Virus record (IMG/VR): IMGVR_UViG_3300017971_000832
Coordinates: 1-21,485 of that record
Length of the DNA: 21,485 nt
Strand: one strand, 5' to 3'
Source: a virus
Made by a program: the position numbers and the translations under genes. The notes below the pieces were generated by a model. The model did not search any database. It was not told the origin of the DNA and worked only from the letters and a program-made list of their open reading frames with translations. Shown here in pieces: positions 1,131 through 17,815 of this stretch. Position 1 is the stretch's first letter; every line of letters begins with the position of its first letter.

Positions 1131-1136
1131 GGCGCC

Positions 1137-1586: not shown

Positions 1587-1618
1587 TGCAAACCTCCAAT
1601 TTGACCGCGAAGAAATCT

Positions 1619-1931: not shown

Positions 1932-1998
1932 GAGCTATACCTCCATGCCGGCGCAGATCGCCGGCGCTTCGTTTCCTTCGGCCTTCCAGTCCCGCCTT

Positions 1999-2979: not shown

Positions 2980-2987
2980 GATAGACT

Positions 2988-3809: not shown

Positions 3810-3830
3810 GACATGCTCCTTTCGTTGATG

Positions 3831-3893: not shown

Positions 3894-3903
3894 TCATTCC
3901 TTG

Positions 3904-4506
3904 TTACGGATTGATCTCCGCCCGGTATTCCTTGGCCAGGTCCGGGTGCTCCACTTGCGCGCGGCTGAGGGCGTCGCTATAGGAGAGCTCCTTGTCCTGC
4001 TTCATCAGGTCCCTGGTGAAGGCGGCCAGCTTTTCCCCTGCCGAGCCGGCGTTCACGTCCTTGTCCCGGGTGGCGATCTCTTTGAAATCGATCACCTTGG
4101 GGAGCTCGGCCAGGAACTCTTTGAACCATCGGAGGCGGGAGGTCTTTTTCTCCGCGGAGAATTCCACGGGTTCCTCGCCGTCCAGGGAAAGCATGAATTC
4201 CCGGAGGCCCATCTTCTCCCAGGCGGGAATGATCTTCCCGTCTTTTTTGAGGGTTTCGCAGAAGGCGTTGGTCTCCGCTTTGCGGGCCTCGATACGCGCG
4301 GCTTTCTCGCGCTCGGCGAATTCCCGCTGCGCCTGCTCCTTGGCCTCTTTGGCCGCCTTGTCCGCGGCCGCCTTTTCCCGTGCCTGGATCTCGGCCTCGG
4401 TGAAGGCGTGCGGCTGCACGTCGTCGGGAAGGGCGTCGTCCGGCACCTTGCTCATATCGATGCCCATCGATGAGAGCGTGTTTTTGAGGATGTCTTTGAT
4501 GCTCAT
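3904..4506 (-). CDS. Z: nested scaffold protein from internal in-frame start (Mu Z-like)
   Basis: An ATG at 4506-4504 is in frame with the protease gene (codon 248) and is preceded by AGAAAGGAGAAGCAT, an excellent Shine-Dalgarno with proper spacing. The product would be 200 residues, MSIKDILKNTLSSMGIDM to the shared C-terminus. It is charged and helical (EIQAREKAAADKAAKEAKEQ), as expected for a scaffold. In phage Mu the scaffold Z is produced from a start inside gene I, so the arrangement is known in the family; here the evidence is the RBS, the frame and the domain boundary. Expression is inferred. Confidence 0.8.
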   Translation of the reverse strand: MSIKDILKNTLSSMGIDMSKVPDDALPDDVQPHAFTEAEIQAREKAAADKAAKEAKEQAQREFAEREKAARIEARKAETNAFCETLKKDGKIIPAWEKMGLREFMLSLDGEEPVEFSAEKKTSRLRWFKEFLAELPKVIDFKEIATRDKDVNAGSAGEKLAAFTRDLMKQDKELSYSDALSRAQVEHPDLAKEYRAEINP

Positions 4507-5247
4507 ATGCTTCTCCTTTCTGTTTTCGGCGTGTTCGCCGATCTTGAATTTTTTGCGAAATCTATCCAATCGCTCGGTGATGATCGAGCGCTCCTCGGGG
4601 CTGTACTGGGCCTGGTTTTTCTCCCGGCCCCAGTAGGATGCGGCGGCCCGCGTCTGATCGGCGTCGGGGCACGGATACCGGTAATTGACGGGATCCAGGA
4701 ACTGATCGTCGGGCACGTCGTCCCACTCGGAAGGCTTGGTCACATGGCCGCCTTCCTTGACGCCGATCTTATATTTTTTGGAGCGCGCGCGCTGGGCCTC
4801 TTTTTCCTCGTCCGTGGCCACGAATTCTATGTTGATGGTTCCCTCTCCTGTGTTGAATTTGATCTTTTCCAGGTCTTTGACCGCCGGGGCGGCCGCTCCC
4901 AGGAATCCCACGTGGAGGAGCCTGGTCCCGTCGGGGCTGAGGCGCACGGAGCGGTTTTTGAAGAGGCCCTTTTTGACCATCTCTTCGAACTCGGCCACGA
5001 TTTCTTTGCCCTTGGCATAGAGCGTTCCGCCCACGCGCTTGATCCCTCCGATCCAGCCCCAGGCCGGGGAATCGGTCTCGGGGTGCCCGATCACGATGGG
5101 CACGTCTTCATCGGGGCCGAAATTGTTGACGATGGCGTCGAGGTCGCCCTCCGTCCACTCCTTGGTGTTGCCCGCCGCATCGGTCCAGGTGCCGGTGCGG
5201 AAGATCTCGAACCAGTCGGCCAGACCTGCGAATGTCTTTTTCATCAT
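3904..5247 (-). CDS. I: prohead protease with C-terminal scaffold domain (Mu gpI-like)
   Basis: This encodes 447 residues. The N-terminal 130 residues look like the Mu I protease: VPIVIGHPETDSPAWGW with a probable catalytic His55, and KNRSVRLSPDG with a probable catalytic Ser100, followed by LHVGFLGAAAPAVKDL. Residues about 155-235 hold a small inserted domain (GHVTKPSEWDDVPDDQF ... NYRYPCPDADQTRAAASYWG) resembling DUF6582. Residues 248-447 are a charged, coiled-coil-rich scaffold segment (ADKAAKEAKEQAQREFAERE). The protease is expected to cleave scaffold and capsid proteins during prohead maturation. The start overlaps the F-like gene stop by four bases (ATGA). The scaffold portion is also predicted to be made alone from an internal start (see 3904-4506). 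Confidence 0.9.
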   Translation of the reverse strand: MMKKTFAGLADWFEIFRTGTWTDAAGNTKEWTEGDLDAIVNNFGPDEDVPIVIGHPETDSPAWGWIGGIKRVGGTLYAKGKEIVAEFEEMVKKGLFKNRSVRLSPDGTRLLHVGFLGAAAPAVKDLEKIKFNTGEGTINIEFVATDEEKEAQRARSKKYKIGVKEGGHVTKPSEWDDVPDDQFLDPVNYRYPCPDADQTRAAASYWGREKNQAQYSPEERSIITERLDRFRKKFKIGEHAENRKEKHMSIKDILKNTLSSMGIDMSKVPDDALPDDVQPHAFTEAEIQAREKAAADKAAKEAKEQAQREFAEREKAARIEARKAETNAFCETLKKDGKIIPAWEKMGLREFMLSLDGEEPVEFSAEKKTSRLRWFKEFLAELPKVIDFKEIATRDKDVNAGSAGEKLAAFTRDLMKQDKELSYSDALSRAQVEHPDLAKEYRAEINP

Positions 5248-5984
5248 CGGCGCTCCTCCTCAAAGCGTTTCCGCAATTCCTCCGGGTATTTATTCAAATC
5301 CGGCTCCCAGCGGGCCTTGGCCGGATTATGACTCCAGCCCGGGTCCGGGATCAAGGGCCGGGCCGGCATGCGCTCGCCGGTGACGGGATCCACGGGCTCG
5401 ATCAGGCTATTGGTGGGGTCCTCGGTCTCCACCGTGAGCCCTTCGTCGTCCGCGGTGCGCCGGTCCACCGCGTTCACGCCGCAGCGGCAGTTGTAGCCGT
5501 TGGGCGGGTACCAAGTATCCCAAAAAGGGTGATCCGCCGGAAATACCTTGCCGTCCAGCGCGGCGTGCGTGGGCCTGGTGCGCGCGTCGTTGACGGCGTC
5601 GTATTCCCAGAACGGGAACCGGTCCACCTGCTCCCTCATTTGCTTGTAGCGGCCGGTCGTATAGGCCGTCTGTACGTTGGTCCGGAAAATGGTCTCCAGA
5701 CGCCAAGGCGTGAAGCCCTCCGGAGCCGCCCAGCCCCGGGACCCGAAGATATCGTCCACCCGGTTTTTGAAACCCGCCAGGGTCTCGCCCTCGTCAAGGG
5801 CCTTTTGCACGGCCTCGTGGAGGTCCTTCAGAATATCCATGCGCGCCACGCCGCTCACGGTGAAGGCCTGTGCCCGGGCCTCTTCCGCCAGCGCGTAGAA
5901 CTCCGCCGGCGTAAGATCGAGCAGGCCCCTGAAGGCCTCGATCGCCTCCTCGAAGGGCAGCGGTTTTAATTCGAGTTCGGCCAT
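5244..5984 (-). CDS. F: phage head morphogenesis protein (Mu F / SPP1 gp7 family, short form)
   Basis: This encodes 246 residues. The helical N-terminus (about 1-90) is followed by the family signature: IFRTNVQTAYTTGRY (99-113), then FWEYDAVNDARTRPTHAALDG (125-145) and WYPPNGYNCRCGVNAVD (158-174) with CRC at 166-168. These are typical of the Mu F/SPP1 gp7 minor head proteins, which help portal assembly and DNA ejection. It is much shorter than Mu F (about 425 residues); the part after residue 175 is a short tail rich in Pro and charged residues. It follows the portal gene by four bases and overlaps the protease gene by four bases. Confidence 0.9.
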   Translation of the reverse strand: MAELELKPLPFEEAIEAFRGLLDLTPAEFYALAEEARAQAFTVSGVARMDILKDLHEAVQKALDEGETLAGFKNRVDDIFGSRGWAAPEGFTPWRLETIFRTNVQTAYTTGRYKQMREQVDRFPFWEYDAVNDARTRPTHAALDGKVFPADHPFWDTWYPPNGYNCRCGVNAVDRRTADDEGLTVETEDPTNSLIEPVDPVTGERMPARPLIPDPGWSHNPAKARWEPDLNKYPEELRKRFEEERR

Positions 5985-5988
5985 TTTT

Positions 5989-7506
5989 TTACCGTTGTGC
6001 GGTGTATCTCCCGTAGAGGTCCGCGATATAGATCGCCCGGGCGATCAGTTCCCGGAGATCCGCCGGATCCATCGTGCCGTAGGCGGCATAAATCCGGTCG
6101 CGCAGATCTTCCAGCGACCCGGCGTCCGCGATCATTTTTTTCAGGGGGTGCCTGAGCCCCGCGGCGGCCGGTACGGCGCGATCGATGCTTTCGGCGACCA
6201 GGTGCTCCACCTTTTCCTGTTCCGGCGAAAATCGGGGCGATTTTCGAGCGATGCGCTCCGCGAACATACCTCCCCGTGCCGGCGGCTCCACGAGCTCTTC
6301 TTCTTCTTCCGGCTCCGGGATGCCGTAGGTCTCGTAAAAATATTTTTTGCCCACGGGCACCCCGATCTTGGTGGTCACTGTTTCGTCGATCTCGCTCCGC
6401 TCCTTGAGATCGGGCTTGCGCTCGGCGTGGGTCTTGATCCGGGGATACTCCTCCACGCCGGGGAAGTTATAGTCCACGATCCACCTGATCAGGGTCTCAT
6501 TCAGGCAGCCGTCCAGGAGATCGGCGTCGGCCTCGAGGATGTCCTGGCGGACCTGGCCCCGCTCTTCTTCGCCCCCCAGCTTGCCCGGCGTGCCCTCGGT
6601 GCTGGCCGTCTGCCCGAGCACCGCCTTTGAGATCTGGGCGTCCATGTAATCGCACATGATGTTATAGCTGTCGGTCTTGCTGCTCCCGCCGCGGGAGGCC
6701 GCTTCCAGGAGATCGAGGGCCATATCGTTGGGGATCTTGATCCCCGTTTCCTGCTGTATGGCGTCGATGGCGTCCAGGAGCGCCTGCTGCTGCTCGGGCT
6801 CGGTGCCCGGCGGGTACTTTCCCACCACCGTGGGCATGCCGAATTTTTCCAGGAATACGAGCCAGAACTTGATGCCGTTTTTCTTGAACCATACCGGCCA
6901 CCAGAGTTTCTGGCCCAGCCCCTTGCCGTAGGGGTTGTCCGAATCCCCATAAATGAAGACGATAAATTTACGGGCCGGGACCTCCTCGCCCTCGATCATG
7001 CTCTCGGGCGTGAGGAGCCTGAGCTCGCGGTTCACGCTGAACGAAAAGCGCCGCGGGTGCTTGCCCAGGATCTTGCCGATGCGCACGGCGCCGTTATTCT
7101 GCCGCCAGAGCACCTCTCCTGCATAATACCCATAGAGGATCGCCTTGAGGAGCTCCTGGCGGGCCTGGGTGAAATTGCAGTTTGCAAGCGTCTCTCTCAC
7201 GAAATCGGCGATCCGCTCTTCGCGGCTGGTGGCAGCCGGCCTCCCCGCGCCGCGCGCGCTTGTGCCGGGAATAATCTCCCAGTCTTTCCCCACCAGGGCC
7301 AGGGCCCTGGTCTGGAGCACGCTGCCCGCGTGGGGGTCGCGGTCCACCTCGTCATAGAGCTTGAGGCCCTTTCCCCCGGCCTCGGTGCGGAGCACCGGAT
7401 CCGGATTTTCCAGGCGCTTCAGCCATCCCGCAAAAATATCGATATCCTTTTGCGCGGTGGCGATCTCGTCGGTGATGGGTTTTTGCGGCTTCTCTCCGGC
7501 CATCAA
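5989..7506 (-). CDS. portal protein, DUF935 family (Mu gp29-like)
   Basis: This encodes 505 residues, the usual length. Recognisable features are KLYDEVDRDPHAGSVLQTRALALVGKDWEI near residue 50-80, FTQARQELLKAILYGYYAGEVLW (about 115-140), the PRRFSFSV and FIVFIYGDSDNPYGKGLGQKLWWPVWFKKNG core, and KFGMPTVVGKYPPG, all typical of DUF935 portals. The portal is the dodecameric ring at the head vertex through which DNA is pumped and which joins the tail. The C-terminal part (about 380-505) is charged and includes a PEPEEEEEL stretch. Its start overlaps the large terminase stop by four bases and it ends just upstream of the F-like gene, giving terminase-portal-F order as in Mu. Confidence 0.94.
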   Translation of the reverse strand: MMAGEKPQKPITDEIATAQKDIDIFAGWLKRLENPDPVLRTEAGGKGLKLYDEVDRDPHAGSVLQTRALALVGKDWEIIPGTSARGAGRPAATSREERIADFVRETLANCNFTQARQELLKAILYGYYAGEVLWRQNNGAVRIGKILGKHPRRFSFSVNRELRLLTPESMIEGEEVPARKFIVFIYGDSDNPYGKGLGQKLWWPVWFKKNGIKFWLVFLEKFGMPTVVGKYPPGTEPEQQQALLDAIDAIQQETGIKIPNDMALDLLEAASRGGSSKTDSYNIMCDYMDAQISKAVLGQTASTEGTPGKLGGEEERGQVRQDILEADADLLDGCLNETLIRWIVDYNFPGVEEYPRIKTHAERKPDLKERSEIDETVTTKIGVPVGKKYFYETYGIPEPEEEEELVEPPARGGMFAERIARKSPRFSPEQEKVEHLVAESIDRAVPAAAGLRHPLKKMIADAGSLEDLRDRIYAAYGTMDPADLRELIARAIYIADLYGRYTAQR

Positions 7507-8990
7507 GATCTCCCTCCCAGAAAATTAGCCAGCCTGGTGAACGCGCGCTTCCTGCCGGTGCCCTGGAATTCGATGACGCCCGCTGCTGCGCTGCCCGCGT
7601 GCACGCTCAAAGCCTTGGCCCAGAAATGATCCGCGTGGCCCGTGGCATCGGTCCGCTCCGCGTCATAGCGGAAATGCTTGGTCGTGGTGGCGTATTTCTT
7701 GACGCTGTGCAGCGAATTCCTGATCGTCGCGTCCGCCGCAATGCGGCTGCCGCCGTCCTCGAAATTCTGCTTCAGGCCCACGGCCAGGGCCTCTTTGTTT
7801 TGGGCGGTAAAGGCAATTCCCTCCACCCGCGAGCTCCCGAACCGGTCCTGGGCGCCTTCGGCCAGCTGGGCCCCGATGCCCGTCTCGTCGATACAGGCCC
7901 GCAAAAACTCCGGCCGTCCCAGGATCGCGTGAAGCACCTGCTCCTGCACGAAATAGGGCGTGCGCTTCAGCTCGATCACAGCGGCGCTGTGGAGCACGCG
8001 GTCGATCTCCTGGTCCACCCAGATCACGGAAAGATCTTTCTTGCGCCCGATATCCATGCCCACGTAAAGCTTGCCCACGAATGCCACATTGCGCAGCGCC
8101 TCCGCCGGCGGTTCCGGCCGCACGGTCGTGCGCTTATACTCCTGATAATTCGCCTGGGCCGCCGCGATCAATGCATGTACCCAGGCCGGTTCTTTATGGA
8201 TCTTTACATCCTCTACCGCGCTGATAAGGTCGTGCGTGAGGAATGCGCTCACCTCGTCTGAGGCAACGCACATGTATTCCTCCTCCCAGGCATCGTCGTC
8301 GTTCAGCGCCAGGCGCAGGTCCTCGGGCTCGATCGGCTTCCCCTCTTCGTCCACCAGGGCCAGGCCCATCATCACGGCCTGGTAAATGTCAACAAAGTGC
8401 TTGGACCAGCCGCCGCGGTCGCCCACATGCTCGAAATCCGGCCCGGTGAAGCGCTGTTTGGTGGGCGCGCCGTAAAAAAGCTCATAAAACTTGTTCGTCT
8501 TGCCTTTGAAGGTGCTGATCACCCGCACCTTGTAGCCGCGGGTCACCGTGGGAAACATGGCCTTCCAGATCTCGCGCGAGTCCCGGTGAAGGGCGAACTC
8601 ATCCAGGATGATGTTGGCCGACCAGCCCCGGGCGGTGTCCGGGTTGGCCGGCAGCCCGATGATCCGGGCGCCGTTGGGTAGCACGATCTCCAGCTGCTTA
8701 TAGGTGATCCCGGAGGGGGCCCAGAATTCCGTCTCGTGCTCTTTAAATACCGCGCCCACGGCCCGGGCGTGGAGCTTGGCCTTGGCCACGGCCTCTTTGC
8801 TTTGCCGCTCGCCGGCCGAGAGGATCACCCAGTCCTCGCCGCTGTCCGCCGCGTCCAGCACTGCCTCCAGGGTGGCCTCAAAGGACTTGCCGCCCTGGCG
8901 CGTCACGACCCCGATTTTGAACCGGGAACTGTCTTCCACCCAGTTGCGCTGATATTCGGCAAGCGGTACCGCGGCATTAGCGGAGCCCAT
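7503..8990 (-). CDS. terminase large subunit (Mu gp28-like)
   Basis: This encodes 495 residues. ATPase: Walker A-like TRQGGKS at residues 30-36 and Walker B IILDEF with D130-E131, followed by STFKGKTNKFYE (coupling motif region, about 159-170). Nuclease (RNase H-like) half: YVGMDIGRKKDL with D313, ACIDETG with D368, and TGHADHFWAKAL with D454, the three acidic positions expected for terminase nucleases. It would cut the replicated phage DNA and drive it into the prohead through the portal. It overlaps the small subunit by 14 bp at its start and the portal by four bases at its end. Confidence 0.95.
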   Translation of the reverse strand: MGSANAAVPLAEYQRNWVEDSSRFKIGVVTRQGGKSFEATLEAVLDAADSGEDWVILSAGERQSKEAVAKAKLHARAVGAVFKEHETEFWAPSGITYKQLEIVLPNGARIIGLPANPDTARGWSANIILDEFALHRDSREIWKAMFPTVTRGYKVRVISTFKGKTNKFYELFYGAPTKQRFTGPDFEHVGDRGGWSKHFVDIYQAVMMGLALVDEEGKPIEPEDLRLALNDDDAWEEEYMCVASDEVSAFLTHDLISAVEDVKIHKEPAWVHALIAAAQANYQEYKRTTVRPEPPAEALRNVAFVGKLYVGMDIGRKKDLSVIWVDQEIDRVLHSAAVIELKRTPYFVQEQVLHAILGRPEFLRACIDETGIGAQLAEGAQDRFGSSRVEGIAFTAQNKEALAVGLKQNFEDGGSRIAADATIRNSLHSVKKYATTTKHFRYDAERTDATGHADHFWAKALSVHAGSAAAGVIEFQGTGRKRAFTRLANFLGGRS

Positions 8991-9366
8991 AGATCTCCTT
9001 CCTGATGAAATTCAAAAGCTCGTCCTTGGTCATGGGCTTGTCCGGAATCTCCGGCTCCCCGGCCTTTTTGCCCGCGCCGTCCAGGAGCTTCTCCAGGGCG
9101 ATCACCGGGTACACGTCCTGCGGGTTGAGCGTGTCTATGGCTCTGTCCAGCATTTTATTTCTGAGATCCGTTAGGGTAGCCCGCAAGGATTGTTTATCCT
9201 GCCGATATTCCCGCCGGCGCTTGAACCAGTCCTCCTTGCTCGACCACCGCTTGAGCGACTGGATCGAGATGCCGGTCTCCTGCGCCACCTGCTCCAGGGT
9301 GAGCCCGTCGATCACGTAGAGTTCCTCGGCCTTTTCCCGCAGCTCGTATGATATCGCCTCAACCAT
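8977..9366 (-). CDS. terminase small subunit-like protein (Mu gp27/DUF1804 type)
   Basis: This encodes 129 residues. The N-terminus (AEELYVIDGLTLEQVAQETGI ... LKRWSSKEDWFKRRREYRQ split across residues 12-55) is a helix-turn-helix of the kind that small terminases use to bind the packaging site. The rest is helical (NKMLDRAIDTLNPQD, ALEKLLDGAGKKA, ELLNFIRKEIYGL). It directly precedes and overlaps the large subunit, which supports the assignment. Its start is unusual: a good AAAGGTGAG lies 16 bases before the ATG, with GAGCGAAGCGAGC between, so translation may begin differently or the spacer may have grown; no closer Shine-Dalgarno is seen. Confidence 0.87.
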   Translation of the reverse strand: MVEAISYELREKAEELYVIDGLTLEQVAQETGISIQSLKRWSSKEDWFKRRREYRQDKQSLRATLTDLRNKMLDRAIDTLNPQDVYPVIALEKLLDGAGKKAGEPEIPDKPMTKDELLNFIRKEIYGLR

Positions 9367-9397
9367 GCAATGCTCGCTTCGCTCACCTTTCGTTACA

Positions 9398-9477
9398 TGG
9401 TCAAATCGAGAATTGTTAAATCGTAACTATGTGACGATTTAACTATTTAACTATTCTCTATTTAACTATTCGACTAT
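9398..9477. repeat. intercistronic octad array with strand switch (array C)
   Basis: Mostly 8-bp units: on the plus strand TTTAACTA, TTTAACTA, a 7-bp TTCTCTA, TTTAACTA and TTCGACTA (9438-9477), and the opposite sense units TGGTCAAA, TCGAGAA, TTGTTAAA at 9398-9420. The two halves align as inverted copies over 23 bases with 4 mismatches, so a long imperfect hairpin can form. The array starts at the TAG stop of the upstream gene, which is itself part of a repeat unit. Confidence 0.85.
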
Positions 9478-9731
9478 CCTCTCCCCAGCGCCTTCCTGAT
9501 ATTCCTGATGTCGCCCAGCTTCTCCAACAGCTGCATGTACAGGCTCCAGAGCTCGCTCATGGTCTCCAGGGCCGCCTCGATATTGAGCTCTTCGATAGGC
9601 TCGAAGGGGTCCAGATGATCGCGCACGCTGCCGCGCAATGTCTCGCACCTGAGCCGCAAGCTCCGGGCCTCCCGCTCCTTTTCGCTCAGCAGCCCCTCGT
9701 GCCGCAGCCGCTCTTGTCTCAATTCGCTCAT
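9474..9731 (-). CDS. small charged coiled-coil protein (Mu gp26-position)
   Basis: This encodes 85 residues with a good GGGAGG leader. It is strongly helical and charged (LRQERLRHEGLLSEKEREAR, residues about 4-23) followed by LNIEAALETMSELWSLYMQLLEKLGDI, so a coiled coil is likely. No signal peptide or membrane segment is visible. It follows the 107-residue membrane protein by one base and precedes the terminase genes, where Mu carries gp25-gp26. I do not recognise a function; an assembly or lysis accessory role would fit. The stop codon TAG lies inside a repeat unit of array C. Confidence 0.75.
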   Translation of the reverse strand: MSELRQERLRHEGLLSEKEREARSLRLRCETLRGSVRDHLDPFEPIEELNIEAALETMSELWSLYMQLLEKLGDIRNIRKALGRG

Positions 9732-9732
9732 G

Positions 9733-10056
9733 TCAGCCTCCCTGCTTCCCTTTCGCCTGTTTCTCCAGCCTGACCTGGGGGCAATACTGGTTGGTGTTGA
9801 TGGCGTCCACCAGCTTGGTCATTACCTGCGTGTTCATGATCACCACGTCCTTGAGGTCGCCGGCGAGGCGGTCGTAGCTCTCCACCAGCTTGACATTGCT
9901 GGCATACATCTTGCGCTGCTCGTCCATGTCGGATTTATACTGCGCCAGCATCTTCCGGAAATTCTTGCTGTCGAAATACCACATCACGCCGACGAACCCG
10001 GCGAACCCGAAGGCCCTCACGATCTCGATCAGCCAGGTGGCGCTGATGGAATCCAT
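9733..10056 (-). CDS. membrane-anchored coiled-coil protein (DUF2730/Mu gp25-position; i-spanin-like topology)
   Basis: This encodes 107 residues. A single hydrophobic segment near residues 7-26 (TWLIEIVRAFGFAGFVGVMW) is followed by a charged helical segment (KNFRKMLAQYKSDMDEQRKM) and a heptad-like LVESYDRLAGDLKDVVIMN. N-terminal membrane anchor plus coiled coil is the topology of inner-membrane spanins and of the small proteins that precede the terminase in Mu-like phages. RBS AAGGTGAT precedes the ATG. It lies 9 bases after the exported 134-residue protein. The spanin reading is inference; a lipoprotein partner candidate is at 10878-11531. Confidence 0.75.
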   Translation of the reverse strand: MDSISATWLIEIVRAFGFAGFVGVMWYFDSKNFRKMLAQYKSDMDEQRKMYASNVKLVESYDRLAGDLKDVVIMNTQVMTKLVDAINTNQYCPQVRLEKQAKGKQGG

Positions 10057-10065
10057 ACGATCACC

Positions 10066-10470
10066 TTATAGCCCCAGCCCGCTCGGCGAGGATGGAGAAG
10101 AAACAGCCGCCGGCAGGCGGTCCACCGGGGGGCTGTAGGGCTCCCGCGTATAGGCGACGCTGTTCGATGGATCGGATTCGCCTGTTTCGTTGTAGGCCGT
10201 GGCGATAAATGTATATTCCACTCCCGGCATCAGATTGAGCGTGGCGTCGATATTGCCATAGACAATAACGCCGTCCGCCCGCACCAGATTTTCTTTGGCT
10301 ACGGTCTTGTTGTACTGCTCCGTCCCATCAGTGAAATAGATCGTATATCCAATGATGATATCCCACTCCGCGCCAGGATCATCCCAGTACAGATCGGCCG
10401 CCAATACCAGCGCCGGCAGCATCAGGGCCGCCAGGCCCAGCCCGAGCGCAAAACACAATGATCGTTTCAT
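10066..10470 (-). CDS. exported protein with fibronectin type III-like domain
   Basis: The start is the ATG at 10470, with AAAGGAG well placed before it; upstream in-frame starts (to 10596) lack a signal and cross repeat array B. The 134-residue product has a clear signal peptide (MKRSLCFALGLGLAALMLPA, with VLA-AD cleavage near residue 24). Residues about 28-110 have beta-strand texture with IIGYTIYFTDGTEQY, ATLNLMPGVEYTFIATAYN and TGESDPSNSVAYT, a typical Fn3 pattern (YTFIATAYNETGES). The C-terminus is Pro/Ser-rich. Exported Fn3 proteins are common in the lysis/accessory zones of prophages; a surface or envelope role is inferred, and no enzyme motif is visible. Confidence 0.8.
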   Translation of the reverse strand: MKRSLCFALGLGLAALMLPALVLAADLYWDDPGAEWDIIIGYTIYFTDGTEQYNKTVAKENLVRADGVIVYGNIDATLNLMPGVEYTFIATAYNETGESDPSNSVAYTREPYSPPVDRLPAAVSSPSSPSGLGL

Positions 10471-10512
10471 GCTGCTCTCCTTTTCCATCACACGTGCGTT
10501 GTTTATTGCATT

Positions 10513-10547
10513 GACAACCAACAACCAACGACTGACAACTAACAAAT
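10513..10547. repeat. intercistronic heptad array (array B)
   Basis: Five 7-bp units on the plus strand: GACAACC, AACAACC, AACGACT, GACAACT, AACAAAT. They share the AAC-rich heptad theme of array A (AACCGAC, AACCAAC). The array lies directly after the stop of the 53-residue gene at 10550 and upstream of the Fn3 gene leader. Confidence 0.8.
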
Positions 10548-10549
10548 TC

Positions 10550-10711
10550 TCATACGTCAGGAATATCCGCCGGGTCCATCTGCTCGACTTTGGCACGGGT
10601 ATCCGCGCTGATCCGCTCGATTTCCTCTGCCGAGAGCCCGCGCCGGCGGGCCTCGATGAACGCGGTCATCAGCAGGGCCTTGATGATTTCCGCGGCGATT
10701 GCTTTTTCCAT
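10550..10711 (-). CDS. small helical protein, 53 aa (too short for standard ORF cut-offs)
   Basis: The ATG at 10711 follows GGAGGATATC, an excellent leader. The product is MEKAIAAEIIKALLMTAF followed by IEARRRGLSAEEIERISADT and a short acidic end DPADIPDV. It is helical and charged, with no obvious metal or catalytic motif. Its start overlaps the end of the 69-residue membrane protein by 42 bp, in a different frame, a normal arrangement in this cassette. I do not recognise a family. A competing frame at 10557-10748 gives an Arg/Gly-rich sequence without a good leader and is rejected. Confidence 0.75.
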   Translation of the reverse strand: MEKAIAAEIIKALLMTAFIEARRRGLSAEEIERISADTRAKVEQMDPADIPDV

Positions 10712-10878
10712 GATATCCTCCAGAAATTATAAGACGCATATCCTCCAAACCACGCGCCGGTGATCCATAGGCCTATTGGATTCCTGGAAATCGCCAGGGC
10801 CGGCAGAATATATAATGCCCATCCGTCATCCAGGAATGATCCGCATTGCCACCGATCGCGTTTTAGGAGTCGCCTCAT
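10669..10878 (-). CDS. small membrane protein, 69 aa
   Basis: The ATG at 10878 shares a base with the upstream stop (TAATG), so translation is coupled to the holin-like/lipoprotein gene. The 69 residues begin basic (MRRLLKRDRWQC), continue with two hydrophobic stretches (GWALYILPALAI near 19-30 and PIGLWITGAWFGGYASYNF near 34-52) and end basic (WKKQSPRKSSRPC). Two short transmembrane segments with positive ends fit a holin-type or holin-assisting protein in the lysis cassette. The 3' part overlaps the next small gene by 42 bp. Function is inferred from context and topology. Confidence 0.7.
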   Translation of the reverse strand: MRRLLKRDRWQCGSFLDDGWALYILPALAISRNPIGLWITGAWFGGYASYNFWRISWKKQSPRKSSRPC

Positions 10879-11531
10879 TACAACGTCGCCAGCCGGTTGA
10901 TCAAATTCAGAATCTTGGTTTCCAGATCCGCCGGCGGTGTCAGCCCTCCCTTGACGTAATCATCGTAGGCGAGGATCAAGGGATGCACCTTGGTTAGAAG
11001 GTCCTTTTTCGCCCGGACGATCTCTTTCTGGCCCTCCGTCAAATCCGGCCTTTGGGCCATCGAAAGCGTGTCCTCATACTGGGCGCCGTAGAAATCCATG
11101 AAAAACAAAGATTTCTCCACCGGGCCGCGCTCGCCCCAGGGCTTGATATTCTTGAAGAGCGAGCATCCGGTTACGCATCCCGCGCTCAGTACCGCCAGGG
11201 CCACCAGGATGATACTGATATTGTAAAGCTTGCTCGGAATTGTGGGCTTTGCCTGTGCCTTGCCCTTGGTATTCCGCACCTTGGCCTGGAACTCATAGAG
11301 CCCCACCGCGGCCGCCCCGGCCATGAACCCGGCCAGAAGATACTCGATGATCACTTTCGCGGTCATATCCACCCCGGCGTAGATCATACCCACCGCTCCC
11401 AGGGCGGTGCCGCAGCCCACGGCGATCAGCGGCTTGGCCCGGGCGGGCATGCTGGGCAGGACATGATATACCAGGGCCAGCACTACCGCGAGCAGCGCCG
11501 GCAGCGTAAAATTACCAATGGTGATTTCCAT
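10878..11531 (-). CDS. holin-like membrane domain fused to a lipobox-bearing domain
   Basis: This encodes 217 residues. Residues about 8-82 have three hydrophobic segments (LPALLAVVLALVYHVL; PLIAVGCGTALGAVGMIYAG; VIIEYLLAGFMAGAAAVGLY), like a small phage holin. A Lys-rich linker follows (RNTKGKAQAKPTIPSK). Residues about 104-123 are a fourth hydrophobic stretch ending in VTGC (C123), which matches a lipobox, and the remaining 94 residues (NIKPWGERGPVEKS, then LDFYGAQYE-type helices) are charged and helical. It reads as a holin plus a lipoprotein that is normally a separate gene; no internal in-frame ATG is present at the junction. It lies downstream of the amidase and the 152-residue gene, in the lysis cassette. 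The fusion reading is inference. Confidence 0.72.
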   Translation of the reverse strand: MEITIGNFTLPALLAVVLALVYHVLPSMPARAKPLIAVGCGTALGAVGMIYAGVDMTAKVIIEYLLAGFMAGAAAVGLYEFQAKVRNTKGKAQAKPTIPSKLYNISIILVALAVLSAGCVTGCSLFKNIKPWGERGPVEKSLFFMDFYGAQYEDTLSMAQRPDLTEGQKEIVRAKKDLLTKVHPLILAYDDYVKGGLTPPADLETKILNLINRLATL

Positions 11532-11540
11532 GATTGCCTC

Positions 11541-11999
11541 CTAAATTGTTATTGCATGTTTGACAGCCGAACCCGTTCCGAAACCGAGCTGGTCAAGATA
11601 TGCCTTTGCCTCTTCATTCGTGACCCGTGTCGGAATGCCGTCAGTGTAAATCCACCACTCTATCGGGTCCTTGGTTCGATCCGTAAGCACATGCATTTCC
11701 AGTGTTTCGCAGTTCACAATCAAAGCGTAATCGGCGGCTATCTGCTGTTGGGTTTTATAAAAAAAACAAAGGCAGTACGTGCCTTCTGGCGCAATGGGGA
11801 TAATCGAGATATAAAGATCGTGGAAGAGATCGGGTACGCCAGCAGGATAAACGATTGATATCTTCTCGCCGGTGCTTTGGCGCTCGAGCTCGACTGCATA
11901 ATAAGGCTTGCTCAAGAAACATGCCCCCCCCCAAAGAATCATCGTCACCAGCGCAATCCAGACTATTGCGGAAATTCCTGATGTTTTTTGTTTGTTCAT
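11541..11999 (-). CDS. membrane-anchored protein of unknown function with a G9 tract
   Basis: This encodes 152 residues; the start overlaps the amidase stop by four bases (ATGA) and has a strong AGGAGG leader. Residues about 9-28 are hydrophobic (ISAIVWIALVTMILWGGACF), a signal anchor or uncleaved signal. The rest has beta texture (YAVELERQSTGEKISIVYPA, YISIIPIAPEGTYCLCFFY) and a helical end (TNEEAKAYLDQLGF). The base composition is more AT-rich than the neighbours, suggesting a recently acquired accessory gene. A run of nine G (11924-11932) spans codons 23-26 at the end of the membrane segment. I do not recognise the family. Confidence 0.7.
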   Translation of the reverse strand: MNKQKTSGISAIVWIALVTMILWGGACFLSKPYYAVELERQSTGEKISIVYPAGVPDLFHDLYISIIPIAPEGTYCLCFFYKTQQQIAADYALIVNCETLEMHVLTDRTKDPIEWWIYTDGIPTRVTNEEAKAYLDQLGFGTGSAVKHAITI

Positions 12000-12538
12000 A
12001 ACGCCCTCCTGAAGGCCTCTAAATTAAACTGCGCGCCGGGGCAGCTCTTATACGGCGCGTATTCCCGGTGCCCGCACACGCAGATCGCCGGGATCTCGAG
12101 CAGAAGCATGAGCGATTTCACCAGGGCGACGCCCAGATCCCACTGCTCCTGCGGCGGCGCGATCAGGTCGAAATTGCCCATGAAACAGACGCCCACCGAA
12201 TGATGATTCATATGGTGCTCCCGGCAGTGGGCCCCGGTCTCCGGGACCATGCGCCCGGTCAGCACCTCGTAGCGATCGCCGATCAATTCGATGCCGTAAT
12301 GGTAGCCGATGTTCCGCCAGCCCAGCGTCTCCACGTGATAGCGCCTGATGGCATCCCAGGACACCGTCCGCCCGTCCTGGGTAAGGCTGTGGTGGATCAT
12401 GATGTAGCCGGGGAGCTTCACGATGTCTTTCTTGAGCTGCTCTTCCATCTCCGTCAGCTCGTGGTCAAGCTCCCTGACCATATGCCGGGCCACCATGACC
12501 CGGTTCCTCACCAGGTGCGCGAGATTGTGCCGGTCCAT
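11996..12538 (-). CDS. endolysin: N-acetylmuramoyl-L-alanine amidase (amidase_2 / T7-lysozyme type)
   Basis: This encodes 180 residues. It would cleave the amide bond between N-acetylmuramic acid and L-alanine in peptidoglycan. Visible active-site set: MIHHSLT with H49 as first zinc ligand, GYHYGIEL with Y79/Y81 as the catalytic tyrosine region, VCGHRE with H157 as second ligand, and YKSCPG with K164 and C166, the same H-x-K-C arrangement as T7 lysozyme (H122, K128, C130). About 40 extra helical residues precede the domain. There is no signal peptide, so release needs a holin. The gene is followed directly by membrane and lipoprotein-like genes, as in a lysis cassette. Confidence 0.94.
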   Translation of the reverse strand: MDRHNLAHLVRNRVMVARHMVRELDHELTEMEEQLKKDIVKLPGYIMIHHSLTQDGRTVSWDAIRRYHVETLGWRNIGYHYGIELIGDRYEVLTGRMVPETGAHCREHHMNHHSVGVCFMGNFDLIAPPQEQWDLGVALVKSLMLLLEIPAICVCGHREYAPYKSCPGAQFNLEAFRRAL

Positions 12539-12562
12539 TGTATTTCCTCCGGCTAGCCGTGC

Positions 12563-13123
12563 TTACGCCCCATCATCCGCGGCCGAGATCGTGTACGTCA
12601 CCTCCAGGGTGTCGTTGTCTTCCACGGATTTCGAGGCTGAAAACTGGGCCGCGCAGAACAGCGTGCCGCCGCCGGCCGTGTCGCCCTTGGTGTCGGGACC
12701 GGTCCCGCCGCCCACCAGCGCCGCGCCATAGATCGTCTTGGTCGCGTTCATGGTGAAGGTGGCCTTGTTGGCGCTGTTGGTGATGGACTGGCTTGATGCC
12801 GCGGCCTCGTTGTATTCCGGCCTGGTCGCCTCGTCATACGCCGTGCTTTCGGTATAGCCCGGCACGGCGTAGGTGTGCGTGGCCAAAATGGTAGTGTCGG
12901 ATTCAAAAATCGCCACATACCAGGTGGTGATCTGGGTGGCCGCGTGGAACATGATATCCAGGATGGCGTCCAGGCCCTCATTGACCACCAGGTTTTTGAC
13001 CCGCTCCGTCCACTTCACCGTGCCGTCCGGCCGCCGGCAGACGATCTCCCAGTACCCGCCGAGCAGCATGCCGGCCCTGGGGCCGAGCAACGACATGATT
13101 TTTTCCCTGATCCCCTGATTCAT
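12563..13123 (-). CDS. conserved phage tail/fibre-associated protein
   Basis: This encodes 186 residues with leader GGAGGACACT before the ATG. The N-terminal half has a pattern seen in phage proteins annotated as tail-fibre-like: GYWEIVCRRPDGTVKWTERV, KNLVVNEGLDAILDIMF and TTWYVAIFES, followed by a beta-rich second half (ATFTMNATKTIYGAALVGG and NDTLEVTYTISA). No enzyme motif is visible. It sits downstream of an intrinsic terminator and just upstream of the amidase, so it may be transcribed from its own promoter in the AT-rich spacer or by read-through. Function is inferred as structural. Confidence 0.7.
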   Translation of the reverse strand: MNQGIREKIMSLLGPRAGMLLGGYWEIVCRRPDGTVKWTERVKNLVVNEGLDAILDIMFHAATQITTWYVAIFESDTTILATHTYAVPGYTESTAYDEATRPEYNEAAASSQSITNSANKATFTMNATKTIYGAALVGGGTGPDTKGDTAGGGTLFCAAQFSASKSVEDNDTLEVTYTISAADDGA

Positions 13124-13140
13124 AGTGTCCTCCGGTTGCT

Positions 13141-13196
13141 AAAAAAAACGCCCGATCCGTGCGATCGCGCGTTTTCAATCGCATGGATCGGGCGTT
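13141..13196 (-). terminator. strong rho-independent terminator
   Basis: On the minus strand AACGCCCGATCC (pairing arm 13185-13196) and GGATCGGGCGTT (13147-13158) form a 12-bp perfect stem, extended inward by further pairs with one A-C mismatch around a 12-base loop, and the hairpin runs straight into eight T residues (plus-strand A-run at 13141-13148). It would stop transcripts coming from the Com-like and fibre genes before the 12563-13123 gene. On the plus strand no T-run follows. Confidence 0.93.
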
Positions 13197-13198
13197 GA

Positions 13199-13295
13199 GC
13201 GCCCTGCAGCGTACCACAGGGGGACACCCTGGCCACTCGCTCGCTGCCTCCCGGCGCCCTGCAGCGTACCACAGGGGGACACCCTGGCCACTCGC
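13199..13295. repeat. two direct copies of a 42-bp palindrome-rich element
   Basis: Identical 42-bp copies lie at 13199-13240 and 13254-13295 (55-bp period, 13-bp spacer). Each copy contains CCCTG, CAGGG and CCCTG in a row, so two mutually exclusive hairpins are possible (CCCTG-CAGGG and CAGGG-CCCTG). The pair lies between the Com-like gene and the terminator. Confidence 0.95.
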
Positions 13296-13303
13296 CGGTT
13301 ATA

Positions 13304-13465
13304 TTATTTTACATGTTGAGACTTTTTTTTCTCAAAGTCAAGGTTTTTTTCAATATATACGATTTTTTTACATCGGCGGCACCACATCTTGATATATGTT
13401 TTTTCCGGTCTCCAGGCGCCCAGCAGTTTATTGCAGATGGGGCACCGGATCGTGTCTCCCGCCAT
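13304..13465 (-). CDS. com: Com-like small zinc-ribbon protein (53 aa)
   Basis: The ATG at 13465 shares a base with the upstream stop (TGATG), so it is translationally coupled. The 53-residue product begins MAGDTIRCPICNKLLGAW and continues with TYIKMWCRRCKKIVYI, giving C8-x2-C11 and C29-x2-C32. This is very close to the layout of phage Mu Com (IRCKNCNKLL ... IRCPRCKR as I recall it), the zinc protein that activates translation of the mom DNA-modification mRNA. The C-terminus is basic (KKKSQHVK). It is too short for common ORF cut-offs. No mom or DNA methylase gene follows; next come the duplicated 42-bp element and a terminator. The family call is good, the target is unknown. Confidence 0.85.
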   Translation of the reverse strand: MAGDTIRCPICNKLLGAWRPEKTYIKMWCRRCKKIVYIEKNLDFEKKKSQHVK

Positions 13466-13812
13466 CAGCTCACCGCTACCAGGCCGTCCACGATGAATCG
13501 GATCTCGTCATTGAGAGGCAGGTCCGATCCCGCATCCGAATCATACGTGCCCTCCACGGTGAGGATCCGTACGCCCCGGCTGGTTTCGCCGCTTTGGAGC
13601 GCCAGGTCATCCCCGGAGAGGACGATATCTTCCGATGACGATGGGCTGGATACTTCCACGTCCTCGCGCCCGTTGATCACGTCTCCCTGATCGTCGGTCA
13701 GGGTCCAGGTGAGGGTCTTGGGCGCCACCGCCGCGTCATCCTCGTCCGTAAAGCTCGCGGTGATGATATAGGTGGATTTTTCCTTTGCATGAGTGGTTAA
13801 TTCAGTCGTCAT
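13465..13812 (-). CDS. small beta-rich phage protein (115 aa), Ig-like
   Basis: This encodes 115 residues. Most of it looks like a single beta-sandwich: STYIITASFTDEDDAAVAP, KTLTWTLTDDQGDVINGRED, SSEDIVLSGDDLALQSGE and DEIRFIVDGLVAVS. The TWTLTDDQGDVIN-type segment is common in small Ig-like proteins encoded next to phage fibres. It lies between the large fibre-like gene and the Com-like gene, with array D upstream of its start and a TGATG overlap at its end. I infer a structural, fibre-associated role, without a named family. Confidence 0.7.
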   Translation of the reverse strand: MTTELTTHAKEKSTYIITASFTDEDDAAVAPKTLTWTLTDDQGDVINGREDVEVSSPSSSEDIVLSGDDLALQSGETSRGVRILTVEGTYDSDAGSDLPLNDEIRFIVDGLVAVS

Positions 13813-13822
13813 AATCCCTCAT

Positions 13823-13908
13823 TGATTAGTCAAATCGTGAGTCGTTAAATAGTTAAATCGACACACAATTTAACAATTCTCTATTTAACTGTTTGACTAT
13901 TTAACTAA
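13823..13908. repeat. intercistronic octad array with strand switch (array D)
   Basis: Mostly 8-bp units. Plus strand: TAGTCAAA, a 7-bp TCGTGAG, TCGTTAAA, TAGTTAAA in one sense (13826-13857), then TTTAACAA, a 7-bp TTCTCTA, TTTAACTG, TTTGACTA, TTTAACTA in the other (13869-13907). The halves form an imperfect inverted repeat. Units and the order with a TTCTCTA 7-mer are shared with array C. The stop codon of the fibre gene (TAA at 13901-13903) lies inside the last unit. Confidence 0.87.
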
Positions 13909-16465
13909 CATCAAAACTCACTTCCGGCCTTTTGCCGGAAAAAGATGCGCCGGGCGCGGAGACGGTGAATGTCACGCTCGCGGCCTTGCCGGTGATGGTG
14001 ATGGTCAGCTCGCCGGCCGCCTGAAAATGCGCGGCGACGTCGCCTATGGTGAAACCGTCGGTGACGACCGCGGCGAAGGCCATGATTCTGGAAACCACGC
14101 TCCCGAAGGCCGCAGCGTCCGATGCCGCTACCTGGAATGTGGCCCGGCCGGCCGCCGTGTCCCCGGCCACGATGCCATCGGCCGCCTGCACCAGTGCCGT
14201 AAGCGCCGCGGCAAGGCCCTCGCCGAATGCAGCGCCGTCAGTGGCCGATCGTCGAAAAACGCCGGTCCGCGAGCCCATATCTCCCAGGGTGACGCCATCC
14301 GCGGCCTCGCCGATGGCGGTAAGGAGCGCCGAAACCGTCTCCCCCAGATCAAGCCCATCAGTCACCGCTTTGAGAAAGGTGCCCGCCACCGAGGGCGAAT
14401 CTCCCGCAGCAAGACCGTCCACCGCCAGGGCCTGGATGGCCGCGCCCAGGATGGAGGCCACCAAGCTGTCGCCGAATTTCGCTCCATCCGTGGCCAGCAC
14501 ATGATACAGCGCCGCTACAGCTAACGCCTCGCCTACAGTCAATCCGTCTATAGCCACGCCCTGGAAAATGGCCGTGACGCCGGAGGTGTCTCCCGCCGTG
14601 ATGCCATCGCTTATTGCTCCGGGCTTGCTGATCGTACGCGCCGGGGTGTCGCCCAGATCCGCGCCGTCGGCCGCAGAAAGCAAAAAGGTGGCAATAGCTG
14701 CACCCGTATCGCCCAAAATGGCGCCGTCCGATGCACCGCCTTGGAACGTGGCCCTGCTGCCGGGGCTATCGCCTGCCGCGATGCCGTCGGTGGCTGCTCC
14801 GGGACGGCGAATCGTGCGTCCGGGGGCGTCCCCTGAATTGATCCCATCCGTCAGGCCCGCAAGGAAGACGGCAAGTGCGGCTCCCACATCTCCCATGACT
14901 GTCCCGTCAGTGCTTTCCGCAAGGAGCTGCGCGACCTTGCCGGGGGCGTCTCCCCCCTTGAGCCCGTCGGCAATCGCCGCCTGGAACGTGGCGATCCCCG
15001 CCGGGCTGTCGCCCATCGAGAGCCCATCAGCGGCCTCGGCCTGGTAGGTCTGGCCGGACACCAGCTCAAATGCCCCGATATACCAGGTGCTCCTTGTCGT
15101 CCCTACTATGTCGTCAGTAAATGTGCCGCTCAGATCATCGCCGTCATCCAGCGTATCCAGCTCATCCCCCCCGGTGGTCAGCCGATAGTCGTCATTAGGA
15201 TAATCGACAAAGCAGGAATTGCCATCGTGGCAGTTGAGACTTTGATAGGAGGCATCCGGCGAAGTGGTATCTTCGGAGACGTTTTTGGAGTGGGTGTCTA
15301 TATTACTAGGATCTGTATAATCCGCAGTCGTATTGCCTTGACATAGGTTATTCTTTGCGGTGTGCGCCGGGGTACTACTATAGTGCTGGATTCCCTCATC
15401 ACACTTACACACAGCATTATTACAGATAAAGGAGGTTGCTCCACTTTGACCAGATGCGTCGTTTATGCCTTCTTCATTAGTTGCTCCATAGACTATAGAA
15501 TTTATTATCGTTAAATCTCCAGGGCAACCATAGGAACGTATGATGGGATTGAAGCAGTTGCCATCTCCCTTCATAAGCATCCGACTAATCAACAAATCTG
15601 CCCCTGTGGCAATATCAACAATATATATTCCACGATTCGAGCTGCCGCCCATGTCAACAGCTAGTTTGGATATCTCAATATTTGCAAGATCACCATCGGT
15701 AGCTTCGTACAGATATATCCCATACTCTTGCCAGCTTGAAAAATTTATTCGTGCTCCATTACCATATGCTCCTCCATTATGCTCGGCTCCAGATACAGCA
15801 GTTATCTTGAGAAGATTGCTTCCCGTTTCAGTTGCTATCGCAGGATCTGAAGTAAAGGCAGTCTCTTCATTACGATGTTCAGCGGTGAGGTCACCGGTGA
15901 GCGGATCGGCAATGTCGTTAATGAATGATGGTAAATCCGAATAATCGGCACCACTGCCAATCTCATAAGTGCCGGACGCAACAGAACCTAAGTTAAATGA
16001 AAACTTTGATATTTTTCTGGGGCTTTCATCTTCATGCTTCAGGAGATCGGTGAATGTTCTATCAATAAAAATCCTTCCTGGATCGATTTTCTTGTCGTAG
16101 ATAGCTTCAAAAAGACTCTGGCTGATAAGACCTAAATCCAAGAGTTCTTTAAAATCTACATACCAATCCTGCGCTCTCGGCCTTTCGCCAAAAGAGGACT
16201 CCCACGGATATTTACCATTACTTTTCACTGGGATGAGATATTTGTGCAGATCGCGGGTTTTATTGGTGTCGGCTTTTAAATCAGTGGAACCTCTGATTTT
16301 CCAATAATCTCCCGGTACAGTAAGGACGCAGTGGTGCCTGCGCTCAGTCTTGCCTTTATAATACCCGTCCGCAGCCTGTCCAATGACATGCCCGTCCCGG
16401 AGACCCTTTTCAAAATTAGGATCATCCGGGAGATACTTATTGCCGACTTTGATCAGTAGTTCCAC
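13901..16465 (-). CDS. large fibre-like protein: N-terminal domain, beta-helix-like middle, 17 tandem 20-aa repeats
   Basis: This encodes 854 residues with a GTG start (16465-16463) behind GAGG. Residues about 1-165 are a globular N-terminus of unknown fold. Residues about 166-470 look like a right-handed parallel beta-helix of surface or tail-spike type (GTYEIGSGADYSDLPSFI; NSIVYGATNEEGI; ending STWYIGAFELVS); this segment is clearly AT-richer than its surroundings. Residues about 475-815 are 17 tandem units near 20 residues, consensus xAxDGxxxGDxxxxxAxFxx, from AEAADGLSMGDSPAG to VVTDGFTIGD. Residues 816-854 are a beta-rich tail (ELTITITGKAASVTFTVSA). It may be a tail fibre or surface adhesin. 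It is encoded before the lysis genes rather than after the tail genes. Confidence 0.85.
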   Translation of the reverse strand: MELLIKVGNKYLPDDPNFEKGLRDGHVIGQAADGYYKGKTERRHHCVLTVPGDYWKIRGSTDLKADTNKTRDLHKYLIPVKSNGKYPWESSFGERPRAQDWYVDFKELLDLGLISQSLFEAIYDKKIDPGRIFIDRTFTDLLKHEDESPRKISKFSFNLGSVASGTYEIGSGADYSDLPSFINDIADPLTGDLTAEHRNEETAFTSDPAIATETGSNLLKITAVSGAEHNGGAYGNGARINFSSWQEYGIYLYEATDGDLANIEISKLAVDMGGSSNRGIYIVDIATGADLLISRMLMKGDGNCFNPIIRSYGCPGDLTIINSIVYGATNEEGINDASGQSGATSFICNNAVCKCDEGIQHYSSTPAHTAKNNLCQGNTTADYTDPSNIDTHSKNVSEDTTSPDASYQSLNCHDGNSCFVDYPNDDYRLTTGGDELDTLDDGDDLSGTFTDDIVGTTRSTWYIGAFELVSGQTYQAEAADGLSMGDSPAGIATFQAAIADGLKGGDAPGKVAQLLAESTDGTVMGDVGAALAVFLAGLTDGINSGDAPGRTIRRPGAATDGIAAGDSPGSRATFQGGASDGAILGDTGAAIATFLLSAADGADLGDTPARTISKPGAISDGITAGDTSGVTAIFQGVAIDGLTVGEALAVAALYHVLATDGAKFGDSLVASILGAAIQALAVDGLAAGDSPSVAGTFLKAVTDGLDLGETVSALLTAIGEAADGVTLGDMGSRTGVFRRSATDGAAFGEGLAAALTALVQAADGIVAGDTAAGRATFQVAASDAAAFGSVVSRIMAFAAVVTDGFTIGDVAAHFQAAGELTITITGKAASVTFTVSAPGASFSGKRPEVSFDVS
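14020..15045 (-). repeat. 60-bp tandem coding repeats (17 units) in the fibre-like gene
   Basis: The coding repeats have a 60-bp period (20 residues; unit 10 is three residues longer). Each unit carries DG and, four residues later, GD or GE. Units 2-4, 5-7 and the start of 8-10 repeat at 180-bp (three-unit) scale: the end of units 4 and 7 reads RTIRRPG and RTISKPG, and units 3 and 6 both carry GAALAVF/GAAIATF. Confidence 0.92.
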
Positions 16466-16481: not shown

Positions 16482-17105
16482 TTACCATCTGAACCCTATC
16501 CCAGCGACGGGCAAAAAGGCCGAAAAATCCCGCTCCTCATGGCCTTCGAGCCAGCTTGCCCGGTCGGTGGAGCACCGTATCACAAAATCTTCCGACAACC
16601 GCAGGAAGCGGTAGTCAACCCCTATGGCCACAAAAAACTTCCCGATCTCTTTGCGATAGGCGATACCTATATACCCCCCGATATTGCCCGACAGGTCGTA
16701 CTCCGGATCGTCATAACCCGGATGGATCTCGGTGTCCAGCATATCGTGAAAACGCGCCCTTAGCGCCTCTCCGGCCGCATTGCCCGCCGTTTCGACCTGC
16801 GGATGGTAGTAGCCTATGCCCAGCGACATCATAAAGCCCCAGCGCTCCATCCGGGCGCCGGCGCCGAGACCGTAGAGATCCACGAAGCCCATTTCCTGGC
16901 CGGCGTACCGGGCTGTGGCCGATTCATGTGATCCCCACAGGTATAGCTCGCCCCCGTAGGTGAGCCTGATCATGGCCGCGATGTCGTTCTCGCTCTCCTG
17001 GTAAATGGGCGTTGCTGCTGATAGGGAAATCTCTGCGGCGCCGGCTGCCCCCGCGCAGCACAGCGCCAGGCACAGGGCCGCCATTGCTACCGATCCATAT
17101 TTCAT
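16482..17105 (-). CDS. exported outer-membrane beta-barrel-like protein
   Basis: This encodes 207 residues. The signal peptide is clear (MKYGSVAMAALCLALCCAG, cleavage near AGA-AE at residue 24). After that the sequence alternates in beta-strands: MIRLTYGGELYLWGS, MGFVDLYGLGAGARM, WGFMMSLGIGYYHP, IGGYIGIAYRKEIGKFFVAIGVDYRFL, and it ends AFLPVAGIGFRW with a C-terminal aromatic residue as outer-membrane proteins do. Gly-rich girdles (GLGAGARM, GIGYYHP) fit a small 8-strand barrel. It is not a phage structural family I know. It sits 16 bp upstream of the fibre-like gene and could be lysogenic-conversion cargo that alters the host surface or blocks other phages. Gram-negative host implied. Confidence 0.8.
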   Translation of the reverse strand: MKYGSVAMAALCLALCCAGAAGAAEISLSAATPIYQESENDIAAMIRLTYGGELYLWGSHESATARYAGQEMGFVDLYGLGAGARMERWGFMMSLGIGYYHPQVETAGNAAGEALRARFHDMLDTEIHPGYDDPEYDLSGNIGGYIGIAYRKEIGKFFVAIGVDYRFLRLSEDFVIRCSTDRASWLEGHEERDFSAFLPVAGIGFRW

Positions 17106-17614: not shown

Positions 17615-17815
17615 TTAACTATAGGGATATATAAACTTTGCCCCACATTGAGAGCACCGGGCTTCGATAACGGTTTCATGAACGTCACAAGCATATCCCC
17701 ACAATTCAATTTTCTCGCCGAGCCATCCGAAAGGTGAACAATTTTGAAACGATCTCACCAGCAGCTCTTTAATGCCACCGCATATCGGGCAACTTGGATC
17801 GGTTTTGTCAGGCAT
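17615..17815 (-). CDS. small zinc-ribbon protein (66 aa)
   Basis: The ATG at 17815 follows AGAGGAAACA, a fair Shine-Dalgarno. The 66 residues have two CxxC knuckles: C9-PI-C12 and C54-SQ-C57 (ARCSQCGAKFIY), with further Cys at 26 and 43, so one or two metal sites are likely. There is no catalytic motif. Small zinc-ribbon proteins of this kind are frequent in the early regions of transposable phages, where they may regulate transcription or replication. Base composition is more AT-rich than in the neighbours. Confidence 0.72.
   Translation of the reverse strand: MPDKTDPSCPICGGIKELLVRSFQNCSPFGWLGEKIELWGYACDVHETVIEARCSQCGAKFIYPYS

Follow-up and report, generated by a model that had tools for sequence, protein, structure and literature searches.

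Gene order and the Com-like gene

The window analysed here is a whole virus record of 21,485 bp, a fragment of a Mu-like phage, and all of its recognised genes lie on the minus strand. In the first part of the gene order these are genes for a helix-turn-helix protein, Gam (PF07352, 9.9e-20), GemA (PF06252, 1e-17), a large tail protein, a 115-aa tail-associated protein (13465–13812) and a Com-like protein, followed by a 42-bp element. After this element come genes for a fibre-type protein, an amidase, a holin-like protein, DUF1804, terminase, portal, Mu F, protease, scaffold and the major head protein, a co-directional late gene block that occupies positions 1–13123. The fibre-type gene (12563–13123) matches phrog_8123, a PHROG of unknown function, at 1.1e-25, the tail fibre family phrog_4176 at 6e-4 and Pfam Gp80 at 3.3e-5 (slightly short of its cut-off), in agreement with an earlier note on this DNA that had called it a tail-type gene. 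The next gene (11996–12538) encodes an N-acetylmuramoyl-L-alanine amidase (PF01510, 2.2e-15) and thus a lysis function.

We note several other features of the window. AT-rich intergenic repeats made up of TTTAACTATT-type units occur in both orientations, direct and inverted, between late genes at 9400–9477, 13824–13908 and 578–606. In the 854-aa tail protein (13901–16465) a 20-aa repeat of the type TDGxxxGDxxxxxATF recurs in degenerate form, and similar repeats precede the fibre genes of three relatives (L003, L042 and L013). Between gemA and the tail gene, 16482–17105 encodes a 207-aa protein with a signal-peptide-like start and no family match found, a possible cargo gene. A second small cysteine-rich ORF (17615–17815; 66 aa, two CxxC pairs) stands directly before gemA in gene order, and Pfam and PHROG searches gave nothing above cut-off for it.

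The Com-like gene (13304–13465) encodes a 53-aa protein, and its ATG overlaps the stop codon of the 115-aa gene (TGATG). The protein has the cysteines C8-x2-C11 and C29-x2-C32, as earlier described, and so contains the N-terminal four-cysteine zinc module of the approximately 60-aa Com proteins. It matches the PHROG "translational regulator" family phrog_6417 (E 3.6e-6) and the gpCom family phrog_13819 (E 8.9e-4), and it is 37% identical to Mu Com over 35 aa (E 3e-5, single-pair BLASTP); the Pfam Com model PF10122 gave no hit to it at E 1 or better. With proteins this short, the case for homology depends on few positions. An AF2 model of the protein is all-beta with four strands (mean pLDDT 77); a PDB fold search with this model found no match at E 0.001, and neither the Pfam and PHROG families nor the model contain a helix-turn-helix. 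Used as sole query, the protein retrieved no close relative from viral contigs or from phages, so the related loci discussed below were reached through the fibre, amidase and neighbouring genes. A scan of genomes yielded a single archaeal-labelled contig, from which the module is absent.

In phage Mu, Com binds a structured region of mRNA and enables translation of the DNA-modification gene mom. The com genes of Mu, B3, Chuche and Phipami28 all overlap a mom or methylase gene. The window gene overlaps neither; a promoter, a leader and a terminator come after it instead. The earlier observation that mom or methylase genes are missing downstream was borne out for the window ORFs scanned, which represent a 21.5-kb fragment of the phage.

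The putative promoter, leader and terminator ahead of the late genes

A sigma70-like promoter sequence, TTGAGA-18-TAAAAT, overlaps the end of the Com-like gene (13335–13306). It matches the consensus at 10 of 12 positions, and 0.8% of equal-sized windows of the contig hold an equal or better site; promoter calls here and in the relatives are consensus matches. Transcription would be expected to start at about 13299, directly ahead of the first copy of the 42-bp element, and the two copies would thereby become the 5' leader of a separate transcript. Copy 1, proximal to the promoter, occupies 13254–13295 and copy 2, proximal to the terminator, 13199–13240. They are 100% identical and 55 bp apart from start to start, exactly as first reported, and none of 300 dinucleotide shuffles exceeds a repeat score of 12, against 42 for the real sequence. 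The predicted RNA thus consists of copy 1, a 13-nt spacer, copy 2 and the terminator.

Each copy can form the alternative hairpins that had been proposed for it, hairpin A being CAGGG-UGUCC-CCCUG (-7.1 kcal/mol) and hairpin B CCCUGUGG-UACG-CUGCAGGG (-10.6 kcal/mol). A single 42-nt copy is not more stable than its own shuffles (z +0.8), so the label "hairpin" rests on comparison rather than on energy, and in the minimum-energy fold copy 1 is paired with copy 2. The sequences that flank the copies differ, yet they are complementary in each case. Those of copy 1 add CCG/CGG and lengthen its GCG/CGC ends to a CCGGCG/CGCCGG stem, and those of copy 2 add GA/UC to give a GAGCG/CGCUC stem. The chance of such complementary extension is 0.001 to 0.01 by a rough hand estimate, which is modest evidence and suggests that each copy has been kept as a closed RNA domain.

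The 42-bp element occurs nowhere else in the viral contigs or plasmids, and its one phage match (27 nt) is at chance level. The search for the same element beside other com genes, which the earlier note had proposed, accordingly came up empty in viral contigs, plasmids and phages, and the element was equally not found at sites unrelated to com or phage genes. A comparison of the leader region with Rfam gave no meaningful match.

The terminator that had been recognised after the copies is strong. Its stem of 19–20 bp (13147–13196) folds at -35.9 kcal/mol (z -7.5) and is followed by a run of eight U (13141–13148), and it begins 2 nt beyond the end of copy 2. Only 7 nt separate the U-run from the GGAGG Shine-Dalgarno sequence of the fibre gene (13129–13133). 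This gap leaves no room for a promoter, indicating that the fibre start is found only on RNAs that have crossed the terminator. Neither the promoter at the com end nor the fact that the terminator stands at the head of the whole late operon, with co-directional genes running from it to position 1, was part of the earlier note. With these two features the repeats appear to be the leader of a separate late transcript and not merely the tail of the com mRNA, and the control point moves to the head of the late operon.

Promoter and terminator bracket a structured RNA of about 160 nt (predicted, 13139–13299), which raises the question of a small regulatory RNA gene whose hairpins serve as binding sites for a host protein or for a target mRNA. 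The 6S leader of phage λ illustrates that small-RNA and leader roles can coexist. We nevertheless consider such a gene quite unlikely, since the terminator lies at or nearly at the Shine-Dalgarno sequence of the next gene in four loci, the leader is without an Rfam match, and the repeat sequences are specific to each phage.

Related loci with the same layout

Four metagenomic fragments, L004, L040, L041 and L043, are syntenic with the window, each over the parts it holds. The genes shared in this way are the 18637–19041 gene, Gam, GemA (in L040 and L041), the zinc-ribbon gene, the amidase, the 9733 and 9474 genes, DUF1804, terminase and portal, and the L004 fibre and amidase match those of the window at 72% and 61%, respectively. 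The window, L004, L040 and L041 carry the full layout: a zinc-ribbon gene, a promoter, a leader with two or three tandem hairpins whose sequences are phage-specific, a terminator at the Shine-Dalgarno sequence, and the first late gene, which is a fibre or an amidase gene. L043 has the terminator without clear repeats. The Com-like genes of L004 and L040 show 35–39% identity (tblastn E 5e-7 for L040), the relationship being weak for the L004 zinc ribbon, and the zinc ribbon of L041 is more distant.

In L004 a 56-aa zinc ribbon is followed by TTGACA-17-TATAGG, three tandem hairpin units GCC-(AUA/AUC/UUA)-GGC that lie well upstream of the terminator, a -30 kcal/mol terminator and the fibre gene. 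In L040 a 58-aa Com-like protein gene precedes TTGACA-17-GATAAT (11 of 12 consensus positions), two copies of GCGGCCTGAGCGCCC, a -25 kcal/mol terminator and the amidase gene. L041 has a 65-aa zinc ribbon, then a second cysteine-rich gene that stands between it and the leader, TTGACA-17-TACACT, two hairpins, a terminator and, again, the amidase gene. The gap between U-run and Shine-Dalgarno sequence is about 0–2 nt in all three relatives. In L040 the second copy (1869–1883) provides the 5' arm of the terminator (1879–1911), and in L041 the second hairpin (4920–4933) overlaps the terminator stem (4930–4964), so that in these two phages a stabilised repeat hairpin and the terminator are mutually exclusive.

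With a Mu-like Com, in vitro selection yielded GAG(N)2CC in a bipartite form; binding depends on CC(N)2-3GAG within a loop that a C-G pair closes, and the natural target in Mu is AUGC[CUGCGA]GCAU (PMC6483171). The two L041 hairpins, GCGC[CGGGGA]GUGC and GGCC[CGGGGA]GGCC, retain the loop while their stems differ, and both match the Mu target and the selected loop motif. A scan for Com-type hairpins recovers the Mu site and both L041 hairpins at a background of 0.11 per kb. L040 has a shortened form of the motif, C[CUGA]G, which was recognised by eye outside the scan. The Mu-type loop motif (C N2-3 GA between a C-G pair) is absent from the window leader in the same hairpin scan, so the window protein, if it binds its repeats, must differ in specificity. 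Protein and RNA changing together would explain a unit that is constant within a phage and different between phages.

These comparisons bear on three other explanations of the repeats. The Com-like protein might, as in Mu, free the ribosome-binding site of the next gene, which is the known role of Com (PMC6483171). The GUGUCC of the window repeat is complementary to GGACAC at the fibre Shine-Dalgarno sequence (duplex energy p 0.038), and the L040 fold pairs copy 2 with the Shine-Dalgarno sequence. However, the complementarity is not significant in L040 (p 0.33), L041 (0.74) or L004 (0.98), leaving sequestration by the repeats nominally significant in the window only, and a transcriptional terminator intervenes between repeat and gene. 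We regard translational control as very unlikely here. Less probable still is a protein-free antitermination RNA to which com is a bystander. The HK022 putL RNA consists of two structured units straight after the promoter and needs no dedicated protein (PMC9378689), an arrangement that the window shares, but such an RNA must fit RNA polymerase and similar sequences would be expected, whereas the sequences differ between these phages and zinc-ribbon genes recur upstream. Least probable of all is a role of the copies at the DNA level, as tandem operators where a repressor or activator of the late promoter would bind. Each does contain CAGGG-N5-CCCTG-N10-CAGGG, a dyad-symmetric DNA sequence just downstream of the start, but the L041 hairpins have identical loops on stems that differ, with a G-U pair retained, and the window flanks lengthen both copies as different complementary stems.

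The association was also measured by scanning both strands of 150 non-redundant loci (1.2 Mb) blind for a terminator, a Shine-Dalgarno sequence and an ORF of at least 100 aa, which returned eight modules. In three of the eight (window, L004 and L040) the terminator U-run comes 121–195 nt after the end of a zinc-ribbon ORF, against an expectation of about 0.004 per module; this count includes the window, which is not independent, and the loci had been picked by gene neighbours and not by com. In a fourth module, that of L041, the zinc gene ends 471 nt before the U-run. Internal direct repeats mark the leaders of these four (window and L040, 0 of 300 shuffles each; L004, p 0.003; L041, p 0.057), and the leaders of the four modules that lack a zinc gene gave no such signal (p 0.39, 0.91, 0.077 and 0.20).

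Three further candidate modules were rejected, L147 because its hairpin has no U-run, L059 because no zinc gene was seen upstream and L165 because its terminator lies far upstream. At L147:2680–2900, in a relative, there is a GCCCGGTTGGG...CCCAGCCGGGC hairpin before the amidase gene, with repeats of CCCGTTCTTGAGACCCG, which may be another form of the same control region. At L029:2240–2350 a fibre-family gene is directly preceded by a terminator; the 15-nt repeat there is weak (p 0.077), and no zinc gene lies upstream. In the relative L003 (2914–5091) tail, fibre and 115-aa genes follow one another with com, leader and terminator all missing, which suggests that the com/terminator block may move as a unit within the tail cassette.

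Mor was not found in the records of the window, L004 (where part of the region is missing), L040, L041 or L043. Where Mor/C would stand, between gemA and the lysis gene, L040 and L041 carry the zinc-ribbon gene. Among Mu-like relatives that bear a Mor/C-type activator, which include L047, L153 and phages such as AFS-2018a and RhkS_P1, the 500 nt that follow mor contain no terminator at any of seven loci.

Another account of the terminator is that it insulates late from middle genes as an ordinary boundary element, a fixed fraction of transcripts reading through, with com and the repeats unrelated to it. The strength of the window terminator, the five modules of eight without a nearby Com-like gene and the terminator of L043 without repeats are all compatible with this. 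The joint occurrence of zinc gene, promoter and internally repeated leader in four relatives argues the other way, as does the lack of a terminator at the seven Mor-bearing loci, and we judge a simple boundary element unlikely.

A candidate antitermination switch and its known counterparts

We propose that the late operon is controlled at its head by the region 13335–13123, an antitermination switch with the layout of λ Q and AlpA in which the Com-type zinc ribbon is the candidate antiterminator; from the sequence comparisons we put the probability of this reading at slightly less than one half (about 0.48). The sigma70-type promoter at the end of com would start an RNA whose first ~100 nt are the two structured 42-nt copies and whose next 50 nt are the strong terminator. 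By default, without the regulator, a short leader RNA would be made and the late genes would be off. The Com-like zinc ribbon, made along with the upstream genes, would bind the nascent tandem hairpins and let the polymerase past the terminator into the fibre, lysis, packaging and head genes. For L040 and L041, a repeat hairpin stabilised by the protein would be in direct competition with the terminator, whereas copy 2 of the window ends before the terminator stem and a bound protein would there more likely act on the polymerase or on folding. The original suggestion that the repeats are the target of the Com-like protein and control read-through into the late genes is thus the one best supported by comparison, four phages sharing the layout; that the zinc ribbon binds the RNA is something we infer. 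The analogy to Com and mom has to be modified, the place of the protein being closer to that of Q and AlpA, or of Mor/C in Mu.

A wider proposal is more tentative, and we would not give it even odds: that a Mu-like clade has swapped Mor/C for an RNA-guided switch in which a Com-family ribbon and phage-specific hairpins release a late terminator, acting on transcription and not on translation. The known model does not explain late gene activation in Mu-like phages that lack Mor/C. If the proposal is correct, a zinc ribbon of 50–60 aa with tandem RNA hairpins would rank among the smallest antitermination systems, the Com family would have a second, transcriptional role, and matched protein and hairpin pairs from several phages would be available for work on RNA recognition.

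In λ, gene Q is followed by a promoter, a terminator and the lysis genes in the same order, and a small terminated leader RNA is the default product. AlpA likewise has the order regulator, promoter, terminator, lysis genes (PMC9371919). The window resembles these systems and that of phage 21 Q in having a regulator-type gene, a sigma70-type promoter, an intrinsic terminator and lysis genes in this order, a likeness of layout in which the identity of the regulator is conjectural. It is unlike them in that Q and AlpA load at a promoter DNA site through a helix-turn-helix, whereas the window candidate is a 53-aa zinc ribbon with neither, and the conspicuous site is a pair of tandem hairpins in the RNA. 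With HK022 put, an RNA of two stem-loops of about 70 nt, it has in common the two structured units right after the promoter and upstream of the terminator, but the sequence of the units is phage-specific and a zinc-ribbon gene lies upstream, whereas put has no dedicated protein. Compared with Mor/C (PF08765), the zinc-ribbon gene in L040 and L041 has the position of Mor in L047, but the protein is unrelated, and Mor/C are DNA-binding activators that need no terminator. Finally, the window protein shares with Com of Mu (about 60 aa) a four-cysteine zinc ribbon of the RNA-binding type and, by analogy with com-mom, has candidate target hairpins near its own gene and the next gene as the candidate to be controlled; it is unlike Mu com-mom in that a separate promoter and a terminator lie between com and the target gene.
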